From Neotabrizicola shimadae (GTDB lineage: Bacteria > Pseudomonadota > Alphaproteobacteria > Rhodobacterales > Rhodobacteraceae): a stretch of 64,000 nt of DNA. Location of the stretch: NCBI RefSeq assembly GCF_019623905.1, contig NZ_CP069370.1, positions 3,354,001 to 3,418,000 of the forward strand. The letters run 5' to 3'. Position 1 is the first letter of the stretch. Every line of letters begins with the position of its first letter. Shown piece by piece: positions 22,316 to 54,588 of this stretch. A model generated the notes under the pieces. The model saw only the letters and a program-made list of their open reading frames with translations, was not told the origin of the DNA and ran no database searches. A program made the position numbers and the translations under genes.

Positions 22316-23185
22316 ATGGAGCCATGGGGACTCACCCCTTCCATGCGGGGAACTGACGTGATAGGCGTCGGTGGTCCGCGGACCTTGGGTTCGAGGGCGC
22401 ACATGCGTGACATCGGCGGCAACCACGAGCACGACATTGGTCATGTGGGCTATCTTGGTCTCGCCCTTGAGGTCATGGATCGTCTGGCGCGCCGCATGGG
22501 CGGGAGTGACGAACTGCGGAAGGATGTCCTTGACCGGTTGACCGCGCTTGCGATCAAACCTGGCTCCGGTGTGAGCGGCGAAATCGTGGATGCCCTCAGT
22601 GCAGCGCGAGTTTCGGCTTCTCAGGCTGTGGCCACGTACATTCCGGAAGTTGCCCGAGTCCTGGGCCGGGGCTGGGAAGAGGACCGTTACACTTTTGCCG
22701 AAGTTACCATCGGTGCGGCGCGCCTTCAGGAACTTCTGCATCGGTTCCAAGGCGATCTGACTGCCGATTCCGTCGACGGCCGAACCCTTTCCACTGCGCT
22801 GGTCGTCGTGCCGCCGGGCGAGCAGCATACTCTGGGCGCCATGGTGGTCGCGATGATGCTGCGGGAAAAGGGTGTTTCGGTAAACATCCAGTTCGGACCG
22901 GCACTGAGCGATCTGGCCCGCCTCATGGCATCACGGCGGTTTGATGCGGCGCTGGTGTCGGTTGCCAACTCGGACAAGGCTGAAACGGCGGCAAAGGTCG
23001 TGAAGACGATCAAGAACTTGAGCAAAGGCAGAATGCTCGTGGCGGTTGGCGGCCCCGGATGTGCGCAGATGCACGATGCTCTTGTGTCTAGCGGTGTCGA
23101 CCTTATTACAAATGATCTGGAGGCGGTCGTCTCCGGGTTTGGTCTGCAAAAGCAGGAGCCCGACGTGAGTCAGGCGTGGGGCTAG
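22316..23185 (+). CDS. ppaA: Cobalamin-binding photoreceptor antirepressor PpaA/AerR
   Basis: Regulator that binds vitamin B12 and modulates PpsR/CrtJ. The 289-residue frame has a W-EEDRY-FAEVTIG helical part near 120-133, then a B12-binding domain with the ExHxxG signature EQHTLG (His171) and VGGPGC towards the end. Two starts are possible: ATG at 22316, with only a weak distant GAGGG, and ATG at 22403 (MRDIGGNHEH) with GAGGG five to six bases upstream. R. capsulatus AerR is made in long and short forms of opposite effect, and this layout could do the same. It precedes ppsR by 31 bases. Confidence 0.93.
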   Translation: MEPWGLTPSMRGTDVIGVGGPRTLGSRAHMRDIGGNHEHDIGHVGYLGLALEVMDRLARRMGGSDELRKDVLDRLTALAIKPGSGVSGEIVDALSAARVSASQAVATYIPEVARVLGRGWEEDRYTFAEVTIGAARLQELLHRFQGDLTADSVDGRTLSTALVVVPPGEQHTLGAMVVAMMLREKGVSVNIQFGPALSDLARLMASRRFDAALVSVANSDKAETAAKVVKTIKNLSKGRMLVAVGGPGCAQMHDALVSSGVDLITNDLEAVVSGFGLQKQEPDVSQAWG

Positions 23186-23216: not shown

Positions 23217-24632
23217 GTGACATCGGATGGACGGTTCCTGATGAAGCAGGGTAGCCTGCCGGAGGTGCCACCGGAACTCCTTGCCGACGTGGTGACTTCG
23301 GCGAGCGACCTTGCACTGGTTGTCTCGTCCGATCATGTCGTTCTTTCGGCGCTGGCGAACCCGCATGCCGGGTTCTGGGCAAAGGTTTCCCAGTGGAATG
23401 GCGCCTCGCTTGAAAGCCTTCTTACACCGGAAAGCTGGCGTAAGTTCCGTTTCAGACTGGAAAGCGCGGACCTTGAAACGCACCGGGTTCTGGTCATCGA
23501 ACTGACCCATTCCGACGCTGTCAACTTCGAGTTTCCGGTTCGATATGCTGTATCTCGACTGGGCAACGGTGCGGGATGGCTGCTCGTAGGGCGCGACATG
23601 AAGCCGATTGCCGAGTTGCAGCAGCAACTTGTGCAGGCGCAACTGGCTCTGGAGCGGGATTACGAAGCGCAGCGTGAGCTGGAGACCCGCTATCGTGTGC
23701 TTATGGAGGCCTCGCCTTCGCCGCAATTGATCGTGTCGGTCGCGTCTGGAAAGATTGTCGATCTGAATGCCTTGGCCGCAGACCTCGTGGGCGCGCCACG
23801 CAGTGAGCTTCTGGATGCGCCACTGGCGCAGGAGTTCGAGGGCCGCAAGCGCGGCGAGCTGATGGAGAACCTGGCTCGGCTGGCAGCGGACGATCCGGCA
23901 GGCACTCCTGACCTTATGGTCCGGCGCAACCGAAAGAGAGTCACCGTTTCGGCGACGGCCTTCCGGGCCGCCGGTGACAAATTGCTGCTGTGCCGTCTGG
24001 ATCTGACCGAGAGCAGCCGCGAGCAGCGGAGCAATCTGGCCGACATGGCCGAGAGGCTGTTCCAGAAGGGAATCGACGCCAAGGTGTTTCTGGACCTTGA
24101 TGGCGTGGTCGTCGTGGCGAATGAATCTTTCCTGAACCTGACAGACAGCGGCAGCCTTGCCATGGTCCAGGGCCGGTCCTTCGCCGACTTCCTGTCTCGC
24201 GGCGCCATCGACCTGCGTGTGCTTCTGGACAACGTGCGCCGAGTCGGCCACTTGCGGCACTATCCGACGCGCCTGAACACGGATTTCTCCGGGCAGGTCT
24301 CTGTCGAAATTTCCGCCACGATGTTTCAGGACCGGACGAACCCCTGCATCGCATTGGTCATCCGTGACTCGAACCTGGCGGATGCAACACGAATCATCCC
24401 CGGCCCGGCAGGCAACGAAGGTTTGCGCAATGTGATGCAGATGGTGGGCTATTCCACGCTGCGGGACATTGTGAATGAAACAACGGAAATCATCGAGAAG
24501 ATGTGCATCGAGACGGCTCTTGAGCTTACCGGGAACAACCGGGTGGCAGCCGCCGAACTGCTGAGCCTGTCTCGTCAGTCCCTTTATGTGAAGCTGCGCA
24601 AGTTCGGTCTTCTGAACAAGGCGGGGGATTGA
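23217..24632 (+). CDS. ppsR: Redox-responsive photosynthesis repressor PpsR/CrtJ
   Basis: DNA-binding repressor of bch, crt and puf genes under oxygen, recognising TGT-N12-ACA. The 471-residue protein has an N-terminal PAS-like domain, a coiled Q-linker (about 130-160, LQQQLVQAQLALERD), two PAS domains and a C-terminal Fis-type helix-turn-helix (GNNRVAAAELLSLSRQSLYV). Cys259 and Cys430 appear equivalent to the redox cysteines C251 and C424 of R. sphaeroides PpsR. Start is a GTG at 23217, or an ATG at 23241 (MKQGSLPEV). Its operators are seen at seven promoter regions in this window. Confidence 0.97.
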   Translation: MTSDGRFLMKQGSLPEVPPELLADVVTSASDLALVVSSDHVVLSALANPHAGFWAKVSQWNGASLESLLTPESWRKFRFRLESADLETHRVLVIELTHSDAVNFEFPVRYAVSRLGNGAGWLLVGRDMKPIAELQQQLVQAQLALERDYEAQRELETRYRVLMEASPSPQLIVSVASGKIVDLNALAADLVGAPRSELLDAPLAQEFEGRKRGELMENLARLAADDPAGTPDLMVRRNRKRVTVSATAFRAAGDKLLLCRLDLTESSREQRSNLADMAERLFQKGIDAKVFLDLDGVVVVANESFLNLTDSGSLAMVQGRSFADFLSRGAIDLRVLLDNVRRVGHLRHYPTRLNTDFSGQVSVEISATMFQDRTNPCIALVIRDSNLADATRIIPGPAGNEGLRNVMQMVGYSTLRDIVNETTEIIEKMCIETALELTGNNRVAAAELLSLSRQSLYVKLRKFGLLNKAGD

Positions 24633-24687: not shown

Positions 24688-24705
24688 TGTAAACTTAAGT
24701 TTACA
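24688..24705. promoter_or_regulatory. PpsR/CrtJ operator upstream of bchE
   Basis: Fully palindromic TGTAAACTTAAGTTTACA, the most symmetric PpsR site in the window. It contains the likely -10 element TAAACT (24690-24695), so bound PpsR would block polymerase that FnrL recruits. Confidence 0.9.
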
Positions 24706-48954: not shown

Positions 48955-49803
48955 ATGGCCTTGCTCAGCTTCGAACGAAAATATCGCGTGCCTGGAGGCA
49001 CGCTGGTGGGCGGGAACCTGTTCGACTTCTGGGTCGGACCCTTCTTCGTCGGCTTCTTCGGTGTCACCACAATCTTCTTTGCCGCACTGGGAACGATCCT
49101 CATCCTCTGGGGGGCGGTGCTGCAAGGCACCTGGAATCCCTGGCTGATCTCGATCAACCCACCACCCATCGAAATGGGCTTGGCTGCGGCCCCGCTGAAC
49201 GAAGGCGGGCTGTGGCAGATCATCACCATCTGCGCCATCGGCGCCTTTGTCAGCTGGGCCATGCGCGAGGTGGAGATCTGCCGCAAGCTTGGGATCGGCT
49301 ACCACGTTCCCGTCGCCTTTGCCGTCGCGATCTTCGCCTATGTCACGCTGGTCGTGATCCGGCCGATCCTGATGGGGGCCTGGGGCTATGCCTTCCCCTA
49401 CGGCATCTTCTCGCACCTCGATTGGGTGTCGAACACCGGCTACACCTACGGCAACTTCCACTACAATCCGGCGCACATGATCGCGGTGAGCTTCTTCTTC
49501 ACCAACGCGCTCGCGCTTTCCCTGCACGGCGGCCTGATCCTTTCGGCGGCCAACCCGGAAAAAGGCAAGGAAATGCGCACCCCGGATCACGAGGACACCT
49601 ATTTCCGTGACCTCATCGGCTATTCGGTCGGCACGCTCGGCATCCACCGCCTGGGCCTGTTCCTCGCGCTGAGTGCCGGCTTCTGGTCGGCCATCTGCAT
49701 CGTGATTTCCGGGACGATCTGGTTCGATCAATGGGTCGACTGGTGGAACTGGTGGCTGAACCTGCCCTGGTGGGCCGGTACCGCAGGAGGCATCAATGGC
49801 TGA
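48955..49803 (+). CDS. pufL: Reaction centre L subunit
   Basis: Core pigment and quinone-binding subunit with five spans, 282 residues. Conserved [20 protein letters not shown] terminus; special-pair and iron histidines are in [22 protein letters not shown] and [12 protein letters not shown]. Overlaps pufM by eight bases. Confidence 0.99.
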
Positions 49804-50719
49804 GTATCAGAACATCTTCACCCAGGTTCAGGTGCGCGGCCACGCCGAAGCGGGCCTTGTCGAGGACGTGGAGGTTCGCAACCGCACCGGCGCCGGCGGG
49901 TTCTCGAACCTGCTTGGCTGGTTCGGCAACGCCCAGATTGGCCCGATCTATCTTGGCACCATGGGCGTTATCTCGCTGGCCACCGGCGCCATCTGGTTCA
50001 TGCTGGTCGGCGCCTGGTTCTGGTACCAGGCGGGCTTCAACCCGGCCGTCTTCATGCGGGACCTGTTCTGGTTCAGCCTGGAACCCCCGGCCGAAGAGTA
50101 CGGCCTAGGCTTCGCGCCTATCGCCGAAGGCGGTCTCTGGATCATCGCCAGCTTCTTCCTGCTGATCTCGGTACTGACCTGGTGGGTCCGCACCTGGCTG
50201 CGGGCCCAGGCGCTTGGCATGGGCAAGCACATCTCCTGGGCCTTCGCCTCGGCGATCTGGCTCTTCCTGGTGCTTGGCCTGATCCGTCCGATCCTGATGG
50301 GTTCCTGGAGCCATGCCGTGCCCTACGGCATCTTCACCCACCTCGACTGGACCAACCTGTTCTCGCTGACCTACGGCAACCTGTTCTACAACCCGTTCCA
50401 CGCGCTCTCGATCGCCTTCCTCTATGGGTCGGCGCTGCTGTTCGCGATGCACGGGGCGACGATCCTCGCCGTCTCCCGCTTCGGCGGCGACCGCGAGCTG
50501 GAACAGATCGCCGACCGTGGCACCGCCTCGGAACGCGCCGCCCTCTTCTGGCGCTGGACGATGGGCTTCAACGCCACGATGGAGGGCATCCACCGGTGGG
50601 CCTGGTGGTTCGCCGTTCTGGTGACGCTGACCGGCGGCATCGGCATCCTCCTGACCGGTACCGTCGTCGACAACTGGTTCGTCTGGGCGCAGCAGCACGG
50701 CTACGCGCCGTTGGATTGA
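49796..50719 (+). CDS. pufM: Reaction centre M subunit
   Basis: Five-span partner of PufL, 307 residues, binding bacteriochlorophyll, quinone QA and the carotenoid. Starts [14 protein letters not shown]; iron/special-pair histidines are in [22 protein letters not shown] and [10 protein letters not shown]. No pufC follows, so cytochrome c2 is the likely electron donor. Confidence 0.99.
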
Positions 50720-50729
50720 GGAGACCGTG

Positions 50730-50957
50730 ATGTCTGACAAACCCTACTTCCACGAACCGAACCATACCATCCATCTCCGGGTCTGGGCCCTGGGCCAGAT
50801 GGTGTGGGGGGCATTCCTCGGCGGTCTCTTCCTCGCCGTTATCGCGGCCGTCCTGATCGGCATCTGGATCGTCGGCCAGCTCTTGCCCGAACAAAGCAAG
50901 CAGGCCCCTTCGCCCTACTCGGCAATCGTCATCGAAAGTCCCGAGCGGTCGGCCTGA
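50730..50957 (+). CDS. pufX: PufX, LH1 ring-opening protein
   Basis: A 75-residue protein with one span and a GxxxG-type helix contact (GAFLGG). In Rhodobacter PufX opens the LH1 ring so quinone can leave, and organises dimeric core complexes. The sequence is divergent but length, place after pufM and layout (SDKPYFHEPNHTIHLRVWALGQM then span, LLPEQ) fit. ATG follows GAGGAGA. Its presence ties the organism to the Rhodobacter clade. Confidence 0.9.
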   Translation: MSDKPYFHEPNHTIHLRVWALGQMVWGAFLGGLFLAVIAAVLIGIWIVGQLLPEQSKQAPSPYSAIVIESPERSA

Positions 50958-50996: not shown

Positions 50997-51131
50997 GCGT
51001 CCGGGTCACAGCCGACCCGGATCCTGGGCCCACCACGGCCCGGTTCCCTTCCTGTTGGCGACAGGCACCTGGTGCCGCATGGCTTGCCAAGCGGCACCCT
51101 TTTCAGCCCGGCTCATCGGAGGACGCAACCC

Positions 51132-53057
51132 ATGAGCGACCAACCCACTTCGACCTCGATCCTCGACAGGGTCTCGGGCCCCGCAGACCTCAAGGCTCTG
51201 TCCGACGGCGAGCTTTCACAACTGGCCGCGGAACTCCGGCGCGAAACCATCGACACCGTCAGCCGCACCGGCGGCCACCTCGGCTCGTCGCTTGGCGTGG
51301 TCGAACTGACCGTTGCACTTCATGCCGTGTTCAACACGCCGCTGGACAAGCTGATCTGGGACGTCGGCCACCAGTGCTATCCGCACAAGATCCTCACCGG
51401 CCGCCGCGACCGCATGGGAACGCTGCGCCAGGCGGGCGGGCTCTCCGGCTTTACCAAGCGGTCCGAAAGCCCCTATGATCCCTTCGGCGCCGCCCATTCC
51501 TCCACTTCGATTTCAGCGGCGCTCGGTTTTGCCGTGGGGCGCGAGATGGGGATGCCGGTCGGCGACACCATCGCCGTCATTGGCGACGGCGCCATCACCG
51601 CAGGCATGGCCTACGAGGCACTGAACCATGCCGGCCACCTGAAATCCCGCCTCTTCGTCGTGCTGAACGACAACGACATGTCGATCGCGCCCCCGGTTGG
51701 GGCGTTGCAGCGGTATCTGAACCAGATTGCCGCCAAGGGTCCTCTCGCCGCGCTGAAGGCCGCAGCCGAAGGGTTCGAATCCCAGCTTCCCGGCCCGGTC
51801 CGCGAAGGTGCGCGCCGCGCGCGCCAGATGGTCACCGGCCTGCCGGGCGGCGCCACGCTGTTCGAGGAGTTCGGTTTCGAATACATCGGCCCCATCGACG
51901 GGCATGACATGGACCAGCTCCTCACCACGTTGCGCGCCGCCCGCGCGCGGGCGTCCGGCCCCGTGCTGATCCACTGCGTCACTGTCAAGGGAAAGGGCTA
52001 CGCCCCGGCCGAACGTGCCGACGACAAGTACCACGGTGTCGCAAAATTCGATGTCGCCACCGGCCAACAGGCCAAGTCGGCGTCAAACGCACCAAGCTAC
52101 ACCGCCGTCTTCGGCCAGCGCCTGACGGAAGAAGCCGCCCGCGACCCCGCCATCGTGGCGATCACCGCGGCCATGCCGGGTGGCACGGGCCTCGACGTCA
52201 TGGCGCGCCGCTTCCCCGCCCGCGTTTTCGACGTGGGTATCGCCGAACAGCACGGCGTGACCTTCGCCGCCGGCCTTGCCGCAGCCGGGATGAAGCCGTT
52301 CTGCGCCATCTACTCCAGCTTCCTTCAGCGCGGATACGATCAGATCGTGCACGACGTCGCCCTGCAGAATCTGCCTGTCCGCTTTGCCATCGACCGCGCC
52401 GGTCTCGTGGGCCAGGACGGCGCCACCCATGCGGGCGCCTTCGACATCTGCTTTCTCGCCAACCTGCCCAACATGACCGTCATGGCCGCAGGCGATGAAG
52501 CCGACCTCTGCCACATGATCGCCACTGCTGTCGCGCATGATCAGGGCCCCATTGCCTTCCGCTACCCGCGGGGCGAAGGAATGGGCGTCGACATGCCCGA
52601 CCGCGGCATCCCACTGCCTCTTGGCAAGGGCCGCATCCTGCGCGAGGGCCGCGACGTCGCCCTCCTGTCATTCGGCGCCCATCTGGGCGAGGTTCTCGCT
52701 GCCGCGGACCTTCTGGAACAGGACGGTATCTCGGTCACCGTTGCCGATGCGCGCTTCGCCAAGCCGCTCGACACCGACCTGATCGACCGACTGCTCAACC
52801 ACCATCCCGCGCTCATCACGGTGGAACAGGGCTCTACAGGGGGGTTCGGAGCACTGGTGCTGCATTATCTGGCCGCCAGCGGTCTTCTCGAACAAGGCCG
52901 CGCAATCCGCACCATGACACTGCCCGACCGCTTCATCGACCAGGCCAGCCCAACTCAAATGTACGATTGGGCCGGCATGTCGCGAATCCATATCCGAGAT
53001 CTTGCAGTTGGACTTTCCCGCCCGACCCGAGGCACGAAAGTTGTCAGGCTGTGTTGA
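51132..53057 (+). CDS. dxs: 1-Deoxy-D-xylulose-5-phosphate synthase
   Basis: Thiamine-diphosphate enzyme of the MEP pathway, joining pyruvate and glyceraldehyde 3-phosphate. The 641-residue protein has [18 protein letters not shown], the TPP motif GDGAITAG through NDND, and the C-terminal transketolase domain. It supplies IPP to idi, crtE and bchP in this cluster. ATG at 51132 follows ggaggacg. Its last codons carry a PpsR operator. Confidence 0.97.
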
Positions 53058-53059
53058 CA
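53042..53059. promoter_or_regulatory. PpsR/CrtJ operator overlapping the dxs stop
   Basis: Perfect TGT-N12-ACA (TGTCAGGCTGTGTTGACA) spanning the dxs TGA. It ends in TTGACA (53054-53059), a consensus -35; a possible -10 GATACT lies 19 bp later. This matches the bchC layout and points to PpsR control of the next gene. Confidence 0.78.
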
Positions 53060-53094
53060 CAATGATGTAGAGCGTCGCGATACTCTTGCAATTC

Positions 53095-53112
53095 TGTAAA
53101 CCTCCGTGAAAA
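53095..53112. promoter_or_regulatory. Degenerate PpsR operator before the PAS-zinc gene
   Basis: TGT-N12-AAA (TGTAAACCTCCGTGAAAA), one mismatch from consensus, 53 bp from the perfect copy (five helical turns). Possible weaker partner site. Confidence 0.45.
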
Positions 53113-53167
53113 ACTCGGGCAGCTTCCGGAAGGAAGGGTCGAGGAATCATACCGAACGGGTCGGCGC

Positions 53168-53743
53168 GTGAGGTTTCAGCAGCTCTATTATGTGCTGGAC
53201 ACACAGTACCGCATCCTCTGGGTGGGCGGTGACTGGGACGAGTTTGCGCTCGCCAATGCCGGCGAGGCTGCCCGCTCGAACGAGGTGCTTTCCACCTCTC
53301 TCTTTACCCACATTGTCGACCAGCCCACAGCCGATGCCGTTGTCCGCCTTGTCGATGTGGTCCGCGCTTCGCAGGCTCCGTTGCGGATAGACTACCGATG
53401 TGACAGCCCCACGATGCTGCGCCGATATCAGATGACCATCCAGCCGATGCGGGACGACCGCGTGCTTCTGGTGCATGACCTTCGGGATGCCCGCACATTC
53501 CATCAGCCGCTCACCCACTGGAAGTACCGCAAGGATGCCCACCACCTGAAATGTTCGTTCTGCTGCTCCGTTGGCACCGGACCGGGCGAGTGGACCCTTC
53601 CCGAAAACCTCACCGGACCGCATCCGGAAGAAGTCGCCTATACGATGTGCCCGTCCTGCAGCGGGCGGGTGGATGAAGCGATCTCGTCACTTGTTGCGAA
53701 CCGCAGCCCCAAGAACCCTGTAACTGGCGGCTTCGGTCCCTGA
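53168..53743 (+). CDS. Unrecognised protein: PAS-like domain plus four-cysteine zinc-ribbon-like tail
   Basis: A 191-residue soluble protein starting at GTG 53168. Residues 1-110 look like a PAS fold (YVLDTQYRILWVGGDWDEFALANAG, then MTIQPMRDDRVLLVHDLRDA at the end). Residues 125-170 hold CxxC pairs at Cys129/Cys132 and Cys161/Cys164, plus Cys133, fitting one Zn2+ or Fe-S site. I do not recognise the family. A perfect PpsR operator over a TTGACA element precedes it, so it should be made with the photosystem. It may be a redox or light-linked regulator or assembly factor; that is inference. Confidence 0.88.
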   Translation: MRFQQLYYVLDTQYRILWVGGDWDEFALANAGEAARSNEVLSTSLFTHIVDQPTADAVVRLVDVVRASQAPLRIDYRCDSPTMLRRYQMTIQPMRDDRVLLVHDLRDARTFHQPLTHWKYRKDAHHLKCSFCCSVGTGPGEWTLPENLTGPHPEEVAYTMCPSCSGRVDEAISSLVANRSPKNPVTGGFGP

Positions 53744-53787
53744 AGACACCAATCTGGGAAAGTCCGCGTCAAGTCTCGCGGCTGAAA

Positions 53788-53823
53788 CAATGTCCGACAA
53801 TCTTGCCACAATGTCTGACATTG
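53788..53823. promoter_or_regulatory. Twin operators upstream of the GntR regulator
   Basis: Perfect palindrome CAATGTCTGACATTG at 53809-53823 and an imperfect copy CAATGTCCGACAATC at 53788-53802, exactly 21 bp (two helical turns) apart. This suits autoregulation by the FadR-type protein encoded next. Confidence 0.75.
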
Positions 53824-53871
53824 CGTAGCGTGGCTGGATTGGCCGGCACTTGGCGGCCACCGGAGATTCGC

Positions 53872-54588
53872 TTGACCGACCGTCCCGCAGAACCTGCGAA
53901 GGAAACGAAGCGCCCGCGCGATGTCGCGCAGCTTCTCGCGGCCTTGGTCGAGGAAGAAGGTCTGGGAATCGGCGACCGTCTCCCGCCCGAAGTCGAACTT
54001 GCCCGCCGCCTGGGCATCGGACGCTCCACCGTGCGCGAGGCGCTGCGCCAGTGGGAAAGCCTGGGCATCATCACCCGCAACAAGGGCGGCGGCACCCGGA
54101 TCGTGGCTGAAGTCTCGACCCGTTCGCTGCACCTGCCGCTGACCGTGCAGATCGAGGCCGACAGCCTCAGCCGGATGCTGGCCGTCCGCCGCCCACTGGA
54201 GATCGAGGCCGTCCGCATCGCCACCCGCGTCGCGGACGAGGCCGCGCGCCGCAAGATCATGCTGCGGATGCTGGAGCTGATGGAGGTCTATGAGGCAGGC
54301 GAGGATTGGCGCCCCGCCGACCGTCTGTTCCACGCCGCAATTCACGATGCAACGGGCAATCCCCTGTTCGCCAAGGTGATTCACCAGATCCACCGCGCCT
54401 TCCACGACCTTTACGACGCCCCCTTCGACCAGCCGCAACTCGGCGCCTCGACCATCCCCGCGCACCGCCCGCTCGCAGAGGCCATCGCGGCAGGTGACGA
54501 GGACCGCGCCGTCGCCATCATCTCCGGCATCCTGTCCGACGTGGACGAAGCCGCCATCCAGATCGCCCGAGGACTTCATGCCGGATAA
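53872..54588 (+). CDS. FadR-subfamily GntR transcriptional regulator
   Basis: A 238-residue regulator: winged helix-turn-helix at about 15-78 (DRLPPEVELARRLGIGRSTV) and an all-helical FCD ligand domain with metal-type residues (D-x-x-FH and H). I chose a TTG at 53872, six bases after GGAG; TTG at 53803 is in frame but lies inside the operators. It likely controls the following PLP enzyme and ABC importer. Ligand unknown. Confidence 0.9.
   Translation: MTDRPAEPAKETKRPRDVAQLLAALVEEEGLGIGDRLPPEVELARRLGIGRSTVREALRQWESLGIITRNKGGGTRIVAEVSTRSLHLPLTVQIEADSLSRMLAVRRPLEIEAVRIATRVADEAARRKIMLRMLELMEVYEAGEDWRPADRLFHAAIHDATGNPLFAKVIHQIHRAFHDLYDAPFDQPQLGASTIPAHRPLAEAIAAGDEDRAVAIISGILSDVDEAAIQIARGLHAG

Follow-up and report, generated by a model that had tools for sequence, protein, structure and literature searches.

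A conserved gene for a PAS-domain protein with a four-cysteine tail follows puf-dxs in Neotabrizicola shimadae and bears a PpsR/CrtJ-type operator

The gene that directly follows pufL, pufM, pufX and dxs in the window (the whole stretch of 64,000 nucleotides of Neotabrizicola shimadae DNA analysed here; NZ_CP069370.1, positions 3,354,001 to 3,418,000) encodes a protein that joins a PAS fold to a conserved four-cysteine, probably zinc-holding tail. This PAS-zinc gene is real and conserved, and it is undescribed in the literature and libraries searched. A PpsR/CrtJ-type operator goes with the gene at most loci where it follows dxs, and close relatives, wherever tested, are accompanied by pufM. 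The observation made in the first-pass annotation of this DNA is thus confirmed, and its interpretation, a regulator or assembly factor expressed with the photosystem, is partly supported.

A gene behind dxs and the protein it encodes

The features of the puf-dxs region are as follows.

48955-49803, forward strand: pufL, named from sequence reading and place
49796-50719, forward strand: pufM, named from sequence reading and place
50730-50957, forward strand: pufX, named from sequence reading and place; without NCBIfam match
51132-53057, forward strand: dxs (TIGR00204, E 7.3e-232); the open reading frame list gives 51072-53057 from a GTG, and the ATG at 51132 is our reading
53168-53743, forward strand: PAS plus four-cysteine-tail gene, 191 aa, GTG start; homologues start at the aligned codon
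53168-53491, forward strand: PAS domain, residues 1-108, from the AlphaFold model and PDB structure matches
53543-53695, forward strand: four-cysteine tail, residues 126-176 (Cys129, 132, 161, 164), from AlphaFold and conservation

The reading frame is the next one after the dxs stop codon (53055-53057), as the first-pass annotation had placed it, and the GTG at 53168 is its earliest possible start. With the starts of the close homologues (loci L071-L104) set by homology, the aligned start codon is non-ATG in all 35 close members (20 TTG, 13 GTG and 2 GTC preceded by ATC). These codons may point to expression held low on purpose, as would befit a protein that the cell keeps at a low level. Comparison of close-clade copies in 11 pairs gave dN values (0.04-0.29) below dS (0.31-0.91), and the protein is therefore under constraint.

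The AlphaFold model of the window protein, computed with 37 aligned sequences as input, has a mean pLDDT of 92.9 and a pTM of 0.88. Residues 1-108 form the five-stranded sheet with helices that is typical of PAS domains. Their Foldseek matches are PAS domains, the best being YtvA (E 6.7e-4), and VIA-align superimposes them on 3mxq_C with a Z of 11.1 and an rmsd of 2.3 over 97 residues, which bears out the PAS-like domain of the first-pass annotation. The likeness to YtvA and other solved PAS/LOV domains lies in the fold; identity is only 4-16% among the matches listed, the LOV cysteine position is lacking and the C-terminal parts are different. No PAS profile in Pfam matched the window protein at E values up to 10. 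Among the 25 of 37 families listed for the aligned members, PAS_4 was weakly matched in 8 of the 37 members (best E 7.5e-4) and zf-Di19 in 10 of 37 (best E 0.013), alongside rubredoxin-like and other weak Pfam matches.

The modelled tail consists of two hairpins followed by a helix; C129-x2-C132 belongs to its first part, and C161-x2-C164 sits where the helix begins. Trp23 and the four cysteines are invariant in 37 of 37 aligned homologue rows; zinc is probably held by the four-cysteine site. The CxxC...CxxC motif described earlier as zinc-ribbon-like thus stands as a conserved site, whereas by the order of its modelled elements we read the tail as treble-clef-like rather than as a plain ribbon. 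The protein has cysteines at positions 78, 129, 132, 133, 161 and 164, including all five named in the first-pass annotation. Among the 35 close members Cys78 is kept in 34, and His103 and His152 in all 35, but Cys133 in only 6, so that Cys133 can bear no weight in the argument. The tail model alone gave 0 Foldseek matches at E up to 0.001 and a best VIA-align Z of 2.1 among 51 chains; this lack of a structural match is no proof of a new fold. The highest 19-residue hydropathy is 1.45, and hence no membrane segment is apparent.

Searches of Pfam, NCBIfam and PDB sequences assigned the window protein to no family, in agreement with the first-pass annotation. Neither a DNA-binding or kinase domain nor a cobalamin-binding domain was recognised with Pfam and NCBIfam, and the BLUF domain PF04940 was unmatched in Pfam. 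PF07310 (PAS_5/MopJ) gave no match at E up to 10, a range in which HMMER filters drop most weak matches. The photoactive cysteine of LOV photoreceptors sits among the helices of their PAS domain. Residues 1-77 of the window protein hold no cysteine, Cys78 being the first, and light sensing by the LOV route is therefore unlikely. By cysteine position and profile searches, membership of the LOV, PAS_5, AppA and AerR classes was rejected. No paper on the PAS-zinc gene was found in a search of titles and abstract starts (most subscription journals and all supplementary tables lay outside it), and the main text of R. capsulatus regulon studies has no occurrence of PAS or dxs.

The operator and a second upstream element

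Two elements precede the gene, and the window also encodes PpsR, which presumably binds the operator.

53042-53059, forward strand: PpsR/CrtJ-type operator TGTCAGGCTGTGTTGACA, a perfect TGT-N12-ACA overlapping the final codons of dxs and lying 126 bp upstream of the GTG start
53095-53112, forward strand: second element TGTAAACCTCCGTGAAAA, one mismatch to TGT-N12-ACA, starting 53 bp beyond the first site
23217-24632, forward strand: PpsR/CrtJ gene, whose product would bind the operator (TIGR02040, E 7.5e-132, above the cut-off)
22316-23185, forward strand: probable PpaA/AerR (cobalamin-type) gene adjoining ppsR, with a weak CarH match below its cut-off; named mainly from its place

Both elements had been noted in the first-pass annotation and lie where it put them. 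The window contains 22 perfect TGT-N12-ACA sites compared with a mean of 5.1 (sd 2.3) in shuffles. Of the 21 dxs-linked copies, 16 (the window and 15 of 20 relatives) have a perfect site 120-132 bp upstream of the start codon, where shuffling, with kinship ignored, leads one to expect 2.7% per sequence. As a control, the stretch reaching from 60 bp upstream to 250 bp downstream of the end of dxs was scanned in 20 puf-dxs regions where the gene does not follow dxs; 19 of them could be judged. None of the 19 bears a perfect site (Fisher P 3e-7), and TGTAAACTT, the form of the second element in relatives, is likewise absent from this stretch in all 19. The operator therefore goes with the gene, and vicinity to dxs alone was rejected as its explanation. 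The conserved site has the TGT-N12-ACA form of operators of the PpsR/CrtJ regulon, and PpsR binding to it is predicted. The link between operator and dxs-linked gene has exceptions: L082 has one mismatch, and in L072, Rhodobacter capsulatus (L073, L075) and R. viridis (L076) the gene follows dxs but has no site, R. capsulatus having only a one-mismatch sequence at -127. Among the copies located between tgt and lon, 1 of 14 has a perfect site (L102, at -211).

The second element reads TGTAAACCT in the window. Of all PpsR-type palindromes in the window, the most symmetric is TGTAAACTTAAGTTTACA at 24688, and TGTAAACTT is identical to one of its arms. The 602 kb of the 34 loci L071-L104 contain 24 occurrences of TGTAAACTT, each no more than 220 bp upstream of the PAS-zinc gene: 21 occurrences lie at -71 to -78, one at -94, one at -126 and one, reversed, at -202 inside the L102 site. 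Among the gene copies, 12 of the 21 linked to dxs and 10 of the 14 located at tgt-lon have TGTAAACTT, and R. capsulatus and R. viridis (L073, L075, L076) lack it together with the perfect operator. Judged from its sequence and position, TGTAAACTT may be a PpsR half-site or a core promoter element, both being candidates. Targets of CrtJ/PpsR are described as lying in tandem in PMC10890935, which would suit two elements before the gene.

The TTGACA element named in the first-pass annotation is the right arm of the palindrome. As a -35 element it was rejected, since inspection by eye of the upstream sequences of homologues revealed no conserved -10 box, and a sigma-70 scan of 52950-53900 found no site. 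The conserved block that begins with TGTAAACTT and ends with GCTA was also compared by eye with sigma-54 and sigma-70 promoters, and neither fitted.

Relatives, phototrophy and the wider family

One pattern-based scan of genome contigs, by a method that can miss relatives, yielded 34 close relatives with 39-63% identity, labelled Rhodobacterales, among them two strains of R. capsulatus and R. viridis. Puf-dxs immediately precedes 20 of them, and the other 14 (for example L094:8680-13250), which are all the copies not next to dxs, sit between tgt and lon. A tree of 40 rows has two changes between these places; a single clade of tgt-lon copies was not rejected (p-AU 0.19, 35 rows). Searches of a plasmid collection and of viral contigs (alignment A2) gave no match that would point to plasmid or virus carriage.

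The close clade keeps company with pufM: all 20 dxs-linked loci share a contig with it, and all 13 tgt-lon holders whose genomes could be searched (L102 left out) encode it. The family sample comprised 295 genomes; pufM is present in 121 of them, including all four close holders. Within one genus of 32 genomes (g191) the gene is present in 10 of 21 pufM-positive and 0 of 11 pufM-negative genomes (Fisher P 0.006, kinship ignored), and in 9 of the 10 holders the gene and pufM share a contig, about 2.5 kb apart; the remaining 11 pufM-positive genomes lack the gene. The window's genus mate G034 (83% complete) has neither the gene nor pufM. Distant holders in the family sample are split into 6 of 12 with and 6 of 12 without pufM (P 0.55, kinship ignored), which shows no phototrophy link for these relatives, and all 16 holders taken together give a P of 0.11 (kinship ignored). 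The link to phototrophy hence belongs to the close clade. The tie to the photosystem drawn in the first-pass annotation is supported for that clade and not for the wider family, which has 10 holders outside the class.

These 10 were found with profile A3, which matched 11 of 299 genomes of the phylum and located the outside holders in two families. Profile A1 matched 8 of 289 genomes of the class, its own included; of the other seven matches, four span into the tail and three cover the PAS part only. Those relatives with both parts that were read are standalone proteins of about 170-245 aa. The family profile also matches PAS parts of longer proteins, in our reading kinases and one GGDEF protein. 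The wider family has no name, consists of standalone proteins and shows no tie to phototrophy; its distant members have varied neighbours, such as murA and hisD (L030) or ftsA and ftsZ (L028). At L028:8315-12296 the homologue lies on the opposite strand between ftsA and ftsZ. Another distant homologue, near murA (L010 / L026, G279), has an in-frame stop codon and is perhaps a decayed copy. In L142 (2619-8112), a tight run comprises photolyase, thiouracil desulfurase/DUF1722, the PAS-zinc gene, lipocalin, BLUF/PsiE and ferrochelatase, as named with Pfam in this locus; the same run occurs in L143, of the same genus, outside the class. It looks like a light-stress operon and gives an independent hint at light or photo-oxidative stress.

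BLUF proteins were sought in the same genomes. None was found in the genome of the window, in R. capsulatus or in R. viridis. Ten of 18 holders have some BLUF protein, none with a frame longer than 323 aa. Full-length AppA has about 450 aa and was thus not seen in these 18 holders. In g191, BLUF frames of 155-280 aa are scattered over 7 of 32 genomes, including L149 (G596), L148 (G602) and L150 (G626). A complementary distribution of BLUF proteins and the PAS-zinc gene in that genus was rejected because two genomes that carry the gene, G602 and G626, also encode a short BLUF protein.

Proposed role and its alternatives

We tentatively propose a PpsR-timed PAS-zinc sensor or adaptor that acts by contact on photosystem gene expression, a reading that we consider quite possible although somewhat short of an even chance. 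The product would be a soluble 21.6-kDa protein with PAS domain and tail and no recognised output domain. For most dxs-linked copies, including that of the window, PpsR, bound to the operator at about -126, would probably set transcription, so that synthesis of the protein should coincide with that of the photosystem. Most likely the PAS domain would respond to a small ligand or to redox state, and the tail could offer a surface for a partner. The likeliest partner would be PpsR itself, in a feedback as known for AppA, AerR/PpaA and LdaP.

The high-confidence PAS model with its structure matches, the invariant Trp23 and four cysteines, the operator that goes with the gene and the company with pufM in the close clade speak for this adaptor, as do the presence of the PpsR gene in the same window and the absence of full-length AppA from the 18 holders scanned. 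Short PAS/LOV proteins acting by contact also have precedents, as excerpts of the respective papers describe them. LdaP (Dshi_1135), the LOV-type PpsR antirepressor of Dinoroseobacter shibae (PMC10890935), is likewise a short PAS-fold protein without output domain, with a role like the one proposed here; it is, however, a LOV photoreceptor, whereas the PAS-zinc protein has no cysteine before residue 78 and bears the four-cysteine tail, and its role is predicted. PmSB-LOV, a short LOV protein that inactivates the LitR-type regulator PmlR2 (PMC9758184), would share the logic of a short PAS-fold protein contacting a transcription factor, but uses LOV chemistry and a LitR-type partner, and the excerpt reports no zinc tail. 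MopJ, a single-domain PAS_5 protein of Caulobacter (PMC4432633), is also a standalone alphaproteobacterial PAS protein working through partners; it differs in belonging to the PAS_5 family, and its excerpt describes no cysteine tail. AppA and AerR/PpaA, antirepressors of PpsR/CrtJ (PMC10890935), act in the photosynthesis control circuit in a role like that predicted here, but have BLUF/heme or cobalamin domains, which are unmatched in the PAS-zinc protein. Against the adaptor weigh the operator-less copies of R. capsulatus, R. viridis and L072, the life of the wider family without phototrophy, the absence of the gene from 11 of 21 pufM-positive g191 genomes, the non-complementary distribution of BLUF proteins and the gene there, the occurrence of some BLUF protein in 10 of 18 holders and, for a light-sensing version, the missing LOV cysteine.

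The wider family also suggests a general stress, redox or light adaptor, of which only the timing would be photosystem-linked here and whose partner would be a general signalling or stress protein rather than PpsR. Relatives outside phototrophs beside genes as varied as murA and hisD or ftsA and ftsZ, and the L142 run from photolyase to ferrochelatase, argue for it, whereas the close clade, found only with pufM where tested and bearing a PpsR-type operator, does not fit well; we regard it as possible but rather unlikely. The place after pufLMX-dxs and the operator would suit structural or assembly genes as much as regulators. A photosystem assembly, cofactor-delivery or stability factor, PpsR-timed and acting on reaction-centre or pigment proteins instead of transcription, would also agree with the lack of a recognised DNA-binding or kinase domain, but PAS folds are mostly sensory, distant relatives live without any photosystem and 11 of 21 pufM-positive g191 genomes do without the gene. 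Such a factor appears unlikely.

That the protein is itself a transcription factor, with a zinc tail that binds nucleic acid and a PAS domain that switches it, is improbable. The tail weakly resembles DNA-binding fingers (CTCF, E 0.073; zf-Di19, E 0.098, the best Pfam row for the protein) and has a pI of 7.9 compared with 5.2 for the PAS part; neither match is significant, however, the whole protein is acidic (median pI 5.8 over 35 copies) and known DNA-binding folds are unmatched. Finally, the overlap of the operator with the last dxs codons in the window could mean that the site belongs to dxs or puf and that the gene follows dxs by chance. The 19 judged puf-dxs loci that lack both gene and site, and the tgt-lon copies that likewise accompany pufM, make a bystander very improbable.

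Returning to the PpsR-timed adaptor, its most specific form would be a missed partner of the PpsR/CrtJ circuit, PpsR-controlled and with a structural zinc tail, that feeds back as antirepressor or co-repressor in Rhodobacter-type lineages in which full-length AppA was not seen, the R. capsulatus form having lost, or never had, the operator. This version is conceivable but rather doubtful.

The control of the purple bacterial photosystem by oxygen and light is a textbook circuit. If the proposed role is true, that circuit would have a gap, namely a sensor-type protein that lies beside puf-dxs in 20 of 34 relatives, including R. capsulatus, and mostly bears the circuit's own operator; it would also provide a first function for a standalone PAS-zinc family reaching well beyond phototrophs. 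The PAS-zinc protein may thus be an overlooked part of the control or building of the light-harvesting machinery.
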